From Fibrobacter sp. (GTDB taxonomy: Bacteria; Fibrobacterota; Fibrobacteria; Fibrobacterales; Fibrobacteraceae), in the NCBI GenBank assembly GCA_024398875.1, contig JAKSIJ010000016.1:1-64000 (forward strand): a stretch of 64,000 bases of DNA. The letters run 5' to 3'. Shown one piece after another: positions 1,906-35,948 of the stretch; the first letter of the stretch is position 1; each line of letters begins with the position of its first letter. Under the pieces are notes generated by a model. The model ran no database searches. It was not told the origin of the DNA and saw nothing but the letters and a program-made list of their open reading frames with translations. The translations under genes were made by a program, and so were the position numbers.

Positions 1906-6895
<4,990 letters not shown>

Positions 6896-29892: not shown

Positions 29893-30543
29893 ATGAAAAA
29901 GAAAATTTGTATCGGAATGTTATTCGCGGCAATGACACTTGCTGCCTGCGGTGGCTCCGGCGCAACGGATCCGGATGATGTTTCTTCCTCAAATTCAATG
30001 GCAAACGGAACGGATCTTGCTGCGGAAGAGGATTGTTCCGTCGTTACGGATGCCTGTGAAGGTCAAAAGTACAAGACCACAACCATAGGTGACCAAGTCT
30101 GGATGGCTCAGAACCTGAATATCGCCACGGAAGAATCCTGGTGCTACGATGATGACCCAGCCAACTGCGAAACATATGGCCGCCTGTACACTTGGTATGC
30201 CGCACAAACGGTATGCCCCGCTGGCTGGCACCTGCCAAGCAAGGGGGAATTTGAAACGCTGTTGGAGAGTGTTGGGTCAAGTGCTGAGGAACGCTCAGAC
30301 AATCTAAGGGATTCGTCTTGGAGTTTTCACCAGGATAAGTATGGCTTCTCTGCGCTCCCTGCTGGCTACTACTTCACCTACTACAAGGAGTTCCACGATT
30401 TGGGCAACGACGCCTACTTTTGGTCTTCTACGATGGATAATGAGAGCAATGTTTACGCCTTGGGCGTAAACAACCTCATTTCGTATGTCCGCATCTTCGC
30501 TAGGACCAATGGCTGCTCGGTGCGTTGTATCAAGGACAACTAG
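29893..30543 (+). CDS. FISUMP-domain lipoprotein
   Basis: 216 aa. The lipobox LAACGGSG shows a lipid-anchored exported protein. A short Ser/Asp-rich linker leads to a FISUMP domain with QVWMAQNLNIA, GRLYTWYAAQ, CPAGWHLPSKGEFETL, YGFSALPAGYY, FWSSTM and a terminal CSVRCIKDN. Unlike two of the other FISUMP genes here, it lacks long poly-Ser repeats. Function of the family is unknown. Confidence 0.9.
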   Translation: MKKKICIGMLFAAMTLAACGGSGATDPDDVSSSNSMANGTDLAAEEDCSVVTDACEGQKYKTTTIGDQVWMAQNLNIATEESWCYDDDPANCETYGRLYTWYAAQTVCPAGWHLPSKGEFETLLESVGSSAEERSDNLRDSSWSFHQDKYGFSALPAGYYFTYYKEFHDLGNDAYFWSSTMDNESNVYALGVNNLISYVRIFARTNGCSVRCIKDN

Positions 30544-32088: not shown

Positions 32089-33468
32089 TTAAACCTTAGG
32101 CATTTTTGCGAAGCTCGCAGCCAGCTCCTCGTCGGTGGGGATGTAGTCACTCATCGTCCCGTCGTTGAACCTGGCATAGCTCATCATGTCGAAGTAGCCT
32201 GTGCCGGTAAGACCGAACACGATGTTCTTCGCTTCGCCGGTCTTCTTGCATTCCAGGGCTTCGTCCATGGCGACGCGGATGGCGTGGCTGCTTTCCGGAG
32301 CGGGGAGGATGCCTTCGGTACGTGCGAACGTTTCTGCGGCTTCGAACACCTTGGTTTGTTCCACGGAGCGGGCTTCCATGACCTTCTGGTCGTACAATTC
32401 CGAAAGAATTGTGCTCATGCCGTGGTAGCGGAGTCCGCCGGCATGGCTTGCAGAAGGCATGAACTTGCTACCGAGAGTGTACATCTTGGCCATGGGGCAG
32501 ATGCAACCCGTATCGCAGAAGTCGTAGGCATAGCGGCCGCGGGTGAGGCTCGGGCAACTGGCTGGTTCTACAGCGATAAAGCGGTAGTCGGCTTCGCCGC
32601 GGAGTTTTTCGCCCACGAACGGGCTGATGAGACCGCCCAGGTTACTGCCACCACCGGCGCAACCGATGATGATGTCTGCCTTCACTCCCAGCTTCTTGAG
32701 AGCTGTCTGGGTTTCGAGCCCGATGATGGTCTGGTGCAAAAGCACCTGGTTCAGCACGGAACCCAGCACGTAGCGGAAGCCTTCCTGGGCCTGCGCTGCT
32801 TCCACAGCCTCAGAAATGGCACATCCAAGACTTCCCGTAGCGCCAGGAAATTCGGCGTTAATCTTGCGGCCAACTTCGGTGGTCATGGAGGGCGACGGAG
32901 TCACCTTGCCGCCGTAGGTGCGCATCACTTCGCGACGGAAGGGCTTCTGTTCGTAACTGCACTTGACCATGTACACCTGGCATTCCAGGTCGAAGAAGGC
33001 ACAGGCCATGCTGAGGGCGGTGCCCCACTGGCCGGCTCCGGTTTCCGTGGTGACGCCCTTGAGGCCCTGCTGCTTGGCGTAGTAGGCCTGGGCGATGGCG
33101 GAGTTCAGCTTGTGGCTGCCGCTGGTGTTGTTGCCTTCGAACTTGTAGTAGATGTGGGCCGGGGTCTCCAGGGCCTGCTCCAAAAAGTAGGCGCGAACCA
33201 GCGGACTGGGGCGGTACATCTTGTAGAATGTAAGGATGTCTTCCGGAATGGGGAAGTAGGCGGTATTCTCGTCCAATTCCTGCTTGATGAGTTCATCGCA
33301 GAACACCGGGCGAAGATCTTCGAAGGTCACAGGCTTCAGAGTCTTAGGATTGAGAAGGGGGGCCGGCTTCTTCTTCATATCGGCGCGGACATTGTACCAC
33401 GCCTTCGGGAGTTCCGCTTCGGTGAGGTAGGTCTTGCATGGTCCGTCGATTTTGAGAGATGTTCTCAT
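32089..33468 (-). CDS. trpB2: Tryptophan synthase beta chain, TrpB2 type
   Basis: 459 aa from ATG at 33468 (MRTSLKIDGP), with AAAGGA upstream. It is longer than classical TrpB (about 400 aa) and has the TrpB2-type N-terminal extension. The PLP lysine lies in GNNTSGSHKLNSAIAQ and the phosphate-binding loop is CAGGGSNLGG. The enzyme condenses serine with indole. No trpA or other trp gene is adjacent, as expected for TrpB2, which may salvage indole. Control is clear from the sequence: a leader peptide with three Trp codons and an attenuator precede it. Confidence 0.92.
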   Translation of the reverse strand: MRTSLKIDGPCKTYLTEAELPKAWYNVRADMKKKPAPLLNPKTLKPVTFEDLRPVFCDELIKQELDENTAYFPIPEDILTFYKMYRPSPLVRAYFLEQALETPAHIYYKFEGNNTSGSHKLNSAIAQAYYAKQQGLKGVTTETGAGQWGTALSMACAFFDLECQVYMVKCSYEQKPFRREVMRTYGGKVTPSPSMTTEVGRKINAEFPGATGSLGCAISEAVEAAQAQEGFRYVLGSVLNQVLLHQTIIGLETQTALKKLGVKADIIIGCAGGGSNLGGLISPFVGEKLRGEADYRFIAVEPASCPSLTRGRYAYDFCDTGCICPMAKMYTLGSKFMPSASHAGGLRYHGMSTILSELYDQKVMEARSVEQTKVFEAAETFARTEGILPAPESSHAIRVAMDEALECKKTGEAKNIVFGLTGTGYFDMMSYARFNDGTMSDYIPTDEELAASFAKMPKV

Positions 33469-33542
33469 GGTAAATCCTTTTTTTAGAGGTGAACACAAAC
33501 AGGTCTTCGTCCGGTGCCTAGATTGGCTTAATCCACAAAAAT

Positions 33543-33602
33543 AGGCTCCTTTCGAGGAGCCTGCATCTTTGTGAAAAACTGAATGAAAAGTACCAGACTC
33601 CT
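33543..33602 (-). promoter_or_regulatory. trp attenuator: competing terminator and antiterminator
   Basis: On the minus strand the terminator stem AGGCTCCT-cgaa-AGGAGCCT (33562-33543) is followed by ATTTTTG. Its left arm can instead pair over 9 bp with AGGAGTCTG (33602-33594 pairs with 33563-33555; one G:U), forming an antiterminator. A third option pairs CAGAC inside the leader peptide (33616-33612) with GTCTG (33598-33594), freeing the terminator. This is the classical three-way choice driven by ribosome stalling at the Trp codons. Confidence 0.9.
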
Positions 33603-33604
33603 TG

Positions 33605-33652
33605 TTATAGGGTCTGCCACCACCAGAATTTGATGCTCATCGCGCTTTTCAT
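33605..33652 (-). CDS. trpL: trp leader peptide (15 aa, three Trp codons)
   Basis: Reads MKSAMSIKFWWWQTL then TAA. The three consecutive TGG codons are at 33625-33617, just before the CAGAC that forms the 1:2 hairpin. When charged tRNA-Trp is scarce the ribosome should stall there, leave AGGAGTCTG free and favour the antiterminator. The -10 element is so close that the transcript starts almost at the ATG, so translation may be leaderless or start at the internal ATG (33640). Confidence 0.88.
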   Translation of the reverse strand: MKSAMSIKFWWWQTL

Positions 33653-33659
33653 GGCCTAT

Positions 33660-33688
33660 AATATACCATTTTTACCCTTTTTTGGCAA
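33660..33688 (-). promoter_or_regulatory. Promoter of trpL-trpB2
   Basis: TTGCCA (33688-33683), a 17-bp spacer and TATATT (33665-33660) on the minus strand. The expected start point falls at about 33652-33656. Confidence 0.75.
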
Positions 33689-35337: not shown

Positions 35338-35948
35338 CAGTTCCATCTCCTGTCGTTGTTGGGGTTGAAATTCTCGTCAAAGTTGTTGAATTCTTCGTCT
35401 TCCGGGTCGGGGTACCCAGTCTCCAGCTCCGTAATGCTGGGGGATTCGATGGACACCACTTCCACTTCAAAAATCAGGTCTTTTCCTGCAAACGGGTGAT
35501 TCCCGTCCACCACCACGGAATCCTTGTAGATTTCCTTGATGATGTAGATGCCGTCGCTTTCGTCCTCGTCATCCCTATCCAGATTGATTCCGTCCACGAA
35601 CTCGTCGGCAGTATCCGGCAGCTGGAATTCCCGCATGTCCTCTTCCTGGAACATCTCCAGTTCCATGCCAAGCCAGAGTTCGCCCACATCCCGCAGTTCC
35701 TCCTTGGGAACATCGATGACCAGGTCCTCCCGATAGGGGCCGTATCCAATGTCGGCGGGAATGTCGAGGGAGAATTTTTCGCCCAAGGCGCGGCCGGCAA
35801 GTCCGTCTTCCAGCCCAGGAATAATGTTGTTGTAGCCGTGGATGTAGACAAAGGGGTGGCTTGCAGGGATTTCTTCCAGAATGCGTCCGGATTTTTCCTT
35901 GAGTACGTAGGCGATTGCCACCTTGGTTTTGTCTTGAATGACTTCCAT
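35337..35948 (-). CDS. SlyD-like FKBP-type peptidyl-prolyl isomerase
   Basis: 203 aa from ATG at 35948 (MEVIQDKTKVAIAYVLK). It has the FKBP core split by an insert-in-flap, as in SlyD: YIHGYNNIIPGLEDGLAGRALGEK, then DIPADIGYGPYREDLV and a later VVDGNHPFAGKDLIFEVEVVSIE. The C-terminal ~45 residues are acidic (Glu/Asp/Asn rich) rather than the His-rich metal tail of E. coli SlyD. It assists folding in the cytoplasm. Confidence 0.85.
   Translation of the reverse strand: MEVIQDKTKVAIAYVLKEKSGRILEEIPASHPFVYIHGYNNIIPGLEDGLAGRALGEKFSLDIPADIGYGPYREDLVIDVPKEELRDVGELWLGMELEMFQEEDMREFQLPDTADEFVDGINLDRDDEDESDGIYIIKEIYKDSVVVDGNHPFAGKDLIFEVEVVSIESPSITELETGYPDPEDEEFNNFDENFNPNNDRRWN

Follow-up and report, generated by a model that had tools for sequence, protein, structure and literature searches.

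A complete trp attenuator precedes a stand-alone trpB2 gene in the 64,000-nucleotide stretch of Fibrobacter sp. DNA that was analysed (contig JAKSIJ010000016.1, positions 1 to 64,000; hereafter the window), which confirms the observation made in an earlier note on this sequence. The best explanation of the locus is a ribosome-mediated transcription attenuator, which very probably ties the expression of trpB2 to charged tRNA-Trp. On the minus strand, positions 33688 to 33537 hold, in order, the hexamer TTGCCA, a 17-nt spacer, the hexamer TATATT, 7 nt, the leader open reading frame (ORF), and the terminator hairpin with its U-run. Every part that had been named before, i.e., the promoter, the 15-residue Trp leader, the 9-bp antiterminator and the U-run terminator, was found in place. 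The features of the locus are the following:

33683-33688, minus strand: -35 hexamer TTGCCA, sigma-70-like, from the promoter scan
33660-33665, minus strand: -10 hexamer TATATT, spacer of 17 nt, leader ATG 7 nt downstream
33605-33652, minus strand: leader ORF of 15 residues, MKSAMSIKFWWWQTL and a stop codon (ATG at 33652, TAA ending at 33605), translation predicted
33617-33625, minus strand: three consecutive Trp codons (TGG x3), TGGTGGTGG, invariant in 14 aligned trpB2 leaders
33590-33620, minus strand: 1:2 hairpin, GUG.CAGAC.CCU with AGG.GUCUG.UAC, from folding and covariation
33594-33602, minus strand: antiterminator strand 2, AGGAGUCUG, from duplex energy and comparative pairing
33555-33563, minus strand: antiterminator strand 3, which is also the 5' arm of the terminator, CAGGCUCCU, from duplex energy, comparative pairing and nascent folding
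33543-33562, minus strand: intrinsic terminator stem AGGCUCCU-CGAA-AGGAGCCU, followed by AUUUUU at 33542-33537
33475-33480, minus strand: Shine-Dalgarno-like AAAGGA of trpB2, read in the sequence
32089-33468, minus strand: trpB2, TrpB-like PLP enzyme of 459 aa, matching the profiles NF009057 and TIGR01415
31983-32009, minus strand: terminator-like hairpin 3' of trpB2, from the terminator scan

The sigma-70-like promoter at 33688-33660 was the sole promoter-like match in the 4.5 kb scanned. The antiterminator formed by strand 2 (AGGAGUCUG) and strand 3 (CAGGCUCCU) has 9 bp, one of which is G-U, and the core of the 1:2 hairpin, CAGAC/GUCUG, is lengthened by CCU/AGG and GUG/UAC. Sequence and folding showed that the 1:2, 2:3 and 3:4 pairings are mutually exclusive at this locus. 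The earlier note had claimed exclusive pairings; its 2:3 and 3:4 stood as described, and the 1:2 pairing, which it had left unspecified, is nevertheless present. Since the terminator-like hairpin at 32009-31983 comes after trpB2, the gene reads as a one-gene unit.

In the proposed mechanism, RNA polymerase would start at or beside the leader AUG and a ribosome would translate the nascent leader. When charged tRNA-Trp is scarce, the ribosome would stall on UGG-UGG-UGG and cover strand 1; strands 2 and 3 would then pair, the terminator would be blocked and trpB2 would be transcribed. When Trp is plentiful, the ribosome would reach the stop codon and keep strand 2 unpaired, so that the 3:4 terminator would form and transcription would end before trpB2. 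A leader left untranslated would fold into the 1:2 hairpin, and transcription would likewise end.

The nascent RNA of the window locus was folded up to strand 3 with different positions of the ribosome. With the ribosome masked on the Trp codons, strand 3 was sequestered by strand 2. With the ribosome at the stop codon, strand 3 was largely free in the predicted fold, i.e., the stalled and the finished ribosome gave opposite folds. The fold predicted without a ribosome contained the 1:2 hairpin and a free strand 3. In some relatives, the fold without a ribosome already had strand 3 paired, which makes the untranslated state less clear-cut in them. Meanwhile, the equilibrium folding of the complete transcript with the ribosome masked gave no antitermination, and the terminator formed in nearly all cases at any ribosome position. 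As a stalled ribosome does not shift the full-length equilibrium away from the terminator, the switch would have to act co-transcriptionally, like known attenuators.

The product of trpB2 scored 671 bits against NF009057 (cut-off 366) and 573 bits against TIGR01415 (cut-off 518.85), both above the curated cut-off. The other trp genes were sought by profile searches, in which every trp family profile gave matches in 14 of 14 reference genomes. In the genome of the window (G000, a 90-contig draft, 99.3% complete), these searches detected aroC and left trpE, trpD, the trpC domain, trpA and trpB1 undetected. The searches likewise left trpE, trpD, trpC, trpA and trpB1 undetected in G007 (85% complete), and trpE and trpB1 undetected in G162 (98% complete, another genus); both carry the trpB2 attenuator. 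It should be noted that the compared genomes are drafts and metagenome-derived. The Fibrobacter species of the window appears to have lost the Trp biosynthesis pathway.

With trpE, trpD, trpC, trpA and trpB1 undetected and aroC kept, trpB2 could make Trp only from indole. The control of either indole salvage or Trp synthesis had been proposed before, and of these salvage now has the stronger support, because the de novo genes were undetected in a 99.3% complete genome in which aroC is present. As the de novo pathway is missing in G000, TrpB2 most likely combines serine with indole taken from the gut community, and in this genome the switch would turn indole salvage on only under Trp starvation.

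The missing pathway would also suit a lineage that lives on free Trp or peptides, in which the attenuator is real but a relic and trpB2 together with its switch is either decaying or serving another role, such as serine deamination. We consider this unlikely, given that trpB2 is intact by its 671 bits against the TrpB-like family, the TrpB2 of the window is 94% identical to that of G007, and both pathway-less lineages retain the leader, the Trp codons, the position of the stop and the three pairings.

Two further observations were made in these genomes. An indolepyruvate:ferredoxin oxidoreductase alpha-like gene is located at G000:C88:52082-53632 (509 bits, under the family cut-off). It was also found in the four other attenuator-bearing Fibrobacter tested, and there was no full-length match in the attenuator-less G003 or in the genomes of genus g15. 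Positions 29893-30543 of the window (plus strand) encode a protein with a lipoprotein-like start, and G018 has two tandem copies of its relatives close to trpB2 (L213).

Transcription normally starts about 7 nt past the -10 box. For the comparison of promoters, the best one was chosen for each leader, and a distance of 3-13 nt from the -10 box to the ATG was allowed. In all 53 leaders, 6 or 7 nt separated the two, and the spacer was 17 nt long in 51 of them; all 18 trpB2 leaders had a -35 hexamer of TTGCCA (or TTGTCA/TTGTCG). Given a distance of 6-7 nt and the usual start distance, transcripts are expected to start on the leader AUG or right beside it. This makes the leader ORF probably leaderless, with a transcription start predicted from promoter spacing at or beside the A of the ATG.

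The Sinorhizobium meliloti RNA rnTrpL also begins at the ATG (PMC7298713). The two systems are alike in that the leader RNA runs from the start codon, which was reported for S. meliloti and is predicted here from promoter spacing; they differ in that S. meliloti trpL precedes trpE(G) and belongs to another phylum and sequence (PMC7298713). The leader RNA or peptide might also act in trans, beyond its role in cis, as do rnTrpL and the peptide peTrpL of S. meliloti (PMC7298713). Such a function would fit the probably leaderless ORF and a peptide conserved past the Trp codons (MKFVASINFWWWQAQ/L in most genomes); however, the RNA pairings partly force this conservation, and we regard trans action as quite improbable.

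The window was also searched against Rfam. No family reached the gathering score, and no trp leader family was among the matches up to E = 10. There was no match to the T-box family RF00230 in the window, though Firmicute trpB2 loci do match it. The comparison covered 79 further trpB2 loci. In the eight loci of gut Firmicutes examined, a T-box match lies just upstream of the stand-alone trpB2 (L049 at 3674-3915; L085, L110, L050, L108, L096, L056 and L097 near 3600-3930). Three of these matches (L049, L085 and L110) are above the Rfam cut-off, and the specifier reads GAA-UGG, i.e., Trp, in 8 of 8. The presence of Trp T-boxes on close trpB2 homologues supports tRNA-Trp control of the TrpB2 enzyme. 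The Firmicute loci share with Fibrobacter the gene (protein about 80% identical), the signal of tRNA-Trp charging and control at the level of transcription; unlike the Firmicute RNA, which binds tRNA directly, Fibrobacter uses a translated leader. In spite of the T-boxes of its Firmicute relatives, it is highly improbable that a different Trp device (a T-box, TRAP or a TrpR operator) is in control of the window trpB2, since neither a T-box nor any other Rfam family was found at the gathering score at the locus and the leader-peptide architecture accounts for the whole region.

Three Bacteroidales trpB2 loci (L082 at 41, L089 at 3819 and L092 at 3680) have WWW leaders, after which come strong hairpins and U-runs; no clear antiterminator was seen in these three. 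Their TrpB2 proteins form a separate clade on the tree. In view of the Firmicute T-boxes and the Bacteroidales WWW leaders with terminators, a lone trpB2 seems to have come under tRNA-Trp control on more than one occasion, and the same enzyme appears to be under this control in three phyla.

The attenuator of the window was then compared with chance. Folding the minus-strand leader RNA with its competing hairpins, a check suggested in the earlier note, gave a z of -4.36 for the 116-nt leader, and none of the 200 shuffles was equally stable. The 2:3 duplex (-15.6 kcal/mol vs. -7.1 ± 2.2 in shuffles) beat all 200 as well. The energy of 1:2 was -12.5 vs. -7.8 in shuffles (7/200), and that of the terminator was -12.8. 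Short in-frame WWW ORFs are expected 0.02 times per random window of the same dinucleotide content; one further in-frame WWW match, at 35515 on the minus strand, lies within a longer overlapping frame.

The first comparison revealed the same leader before trpB2 in four other genomes of the genus. The covariance model R2 was built from these four leaders and that of the window, with the named 1:2 and 3:4 pairings as its structure. It replaced the model R1, the RNAalifold structure of which was dominated by a long-range pairing between the leader start and the 2:3 linker; this outer pairing occurs in single-sequence folds of the first five leaders and is absent from the consensus of 14. R2 matched 40 of the 168 Fibrobacterota genomes at E ≤ 0.1, and the gene after the match was trpB2 in about 15 genomes of the window's genus and in two of genus g15. 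The Trp codons and the hairpin pairings, the conservation of which the earlier note had proposed to check, are kept before trpB2 in about 17 Fibrobacteraceae genomes of two genera, with the exclusive pairings and compensatory changes preserved.

In 14 distinct trpB2 leaders, 93.8% of the 1:2 and 3:4 pairs are standard, compared with 38-54% in slid controls, and for the 2:3 pairs the values are 95.9% vs. 21-55% when slid. Three of the 1:2 and 3:4 pairs are changed on both sides, and 0 of 500 shuffles reached the covariation score, a significance that shuffles overstate because the sequences are related, whereas the slid controls preserve relatedness. For 1:2 alone, 97.9% of the cells are paired over the 14 sequences and two pairs have compensatory changes, the clearest being CAGAC/GUCUG vs. 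CAGGC/GCCUG. Although terminator-like sites are frequent in the region (10 found vs. 5.0 expected), a constitutive terminator next to a chance Trp-rich ORF, with no regulation, has next to no probability and is for practical purposes refuted by the comparative data, as the Trp codons, the promoter-to-ATG spacing and the three mutually exclusive pairings are kept across two genera and so few such ORFs are expected per window.

The leader is absent from ten of the Fibrobacter trpB2 genes sampled, which are about 83% identical to that of the window, so attenuator control is inessential to the enzyme. The usual stop is lost from the trpB2 leader of G092 (L169 1501), which reads MKIVTSINFWWWQIPSVMESGV, while the pairings remain. 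G101 has two copies of trpB2 (L156 and L210), each with an attenuator; this bin is 77% complete and 5% contaminated, and so it may be mixed.

The earlier note had contrasted this locus with attenuators that usually precede trpE or full trp operons. The lone trpB2 case stands, and the family turned out to be wider, spanning trpE, trpC, trpB1 and trpB2 in Fibrobacteraceae. The gene after the R2 match is trpE in several other genera and trpB1 in genus g10, whose TrpB1 shares about 30% identity with TrpB2. A related leader of the type MMNFVTSATxNRRWWRGL precedes most Fibrobacter trpE genes, and the automatic 2:3 pairing test was not significant for these RRWWRGL leaders. The g15 leaders before trpE (MKNANFAIRFWWWQAL) and trpB2 (MKNVTSINFWWWQAL) are alike, which suggests, by likeness rather than from a tree, that they are of common descent. 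Because related leaders precede trpE, trpC and trpB1, the trpB2 attenuator is probably descended from a trp-operon attenuator.

In the g10 Fibrobacteraceae (L170, L172, L175, L176, L177 and L179, around 1501), the leader MKNVKNNNRWWRRA and a terminator are located before trpB1, not trpE. In G160 (L209 1470, minus strand), which gave another R2 match, the leader MKNAFSAFWWWQAL and a terminator precede a gene read as trpC from its first residues; as the leader precedes this apparent trpC, the genome would have separate trpE and trpC attenuators.

On the tree, the TrpB2 proteins of G000, G007, G161 and G162 group together in a single clade, whose sister comprises the remaining Fibrobacter TrpB2. 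The attenuator accompanies all four of these genes, but only some members of the sister group. A single clade of attenuator-bearing TrpB2 was rejected, the distribution taking 4 changes on the tree; it fits either a gain early on that was followed by several losses, or capture on repeated occasions. Fibrobacter TrpB2 adjoins that of Lachnospiraceae (support of 96/93 for the Fibrobacter clade and 87/93 for the join). Conserved gene order around trpB2 was not found, and the neighbourhoods differ among the genomes compared. The Lachnospiraceae placement and the differing neighbourhoods suggest that Fibrobacter trpB2 was acquired horizontally.

The chances seem to us evenly balanced for a wider scenario, in which a module of promoter and leaderless attenuator was copied among trpE, trpC, trpB1 and trpB2 and captured a horizontally acquired indole-salvage enzyme. 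After the loss of the pathway, the module would survive only on trpB2, as a starvation-triggered salvage switch for a Trp auxotroph, and the control in Firmicutes and Bacteroidales would be independent.

Ribosome-mediated trp attenuation, known from E. coli trpL, is a textbook class. The mechanism class found here is classical, and the family is absent from Rfam. It shares with E. coli trpL and the actinobacterial attenuators the adjacent Trp codons, the 1:2, 2:3 and 3:4 pairings, the U-run and a trp gene downstream. To our knowledge, the stand-alone trpB2 as a target, the pathway-less context and the leader family were not known before. A literature search, most subscription papers being outside it, revealed nothing on Fibrobacter attenuators or on trpB2 with leader peptides beyond the case of Corynebacterium diphtheriae, where an attenuator was predicted before trpB2A (PMC1262725). 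That genome also has a trpB1EDGC operon, and its trpB2 is joined to trpA (PMC1262725), whereas the Fibrobacter target is a lone trpB2 in a pathway-less genome. The trpRBA operon of Chlamydia trachomatis is a tryptophan salvage operon, similar in that tryptophan synthase is retained for salvage under Trp-dependent control; as far as the available text of the sources goes, it differs in its control by TrpR and YtgR and in keeping trpA, with no stand-alone trpB2 bearing a leader attenuator (PMC6504234, PMC7755916). Indole salvage by TrpB2 of Thermococcus kodakarensis (Hiyama et al. 2014, cited in PMC11085991) is similar in that a TrpB acts without TrpA and takes up indole; unlike Fibrobacter, this is an archaeon with both TrpB1 and TrpB2, and the available text of the citing paper mentions no attenuator (PMC11085991).

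These results add a probably leaderless attenuator family to a phylum for which our literature search, with most subscription papers outside it, gave none. They also provide an example in which an attenuator seems to have moved from gene to gene, and another in which three phyla use different RNA devices to bring one enzyme under tRNA-Trp control. It has long been guessed that stand-alone trpB2 serves indole salvage, and this role becomes directly testable in organisms without other trp genes. If Trp starvation induces trpB2 there, the job of TrpB2 in gut bacteria would be salvage.
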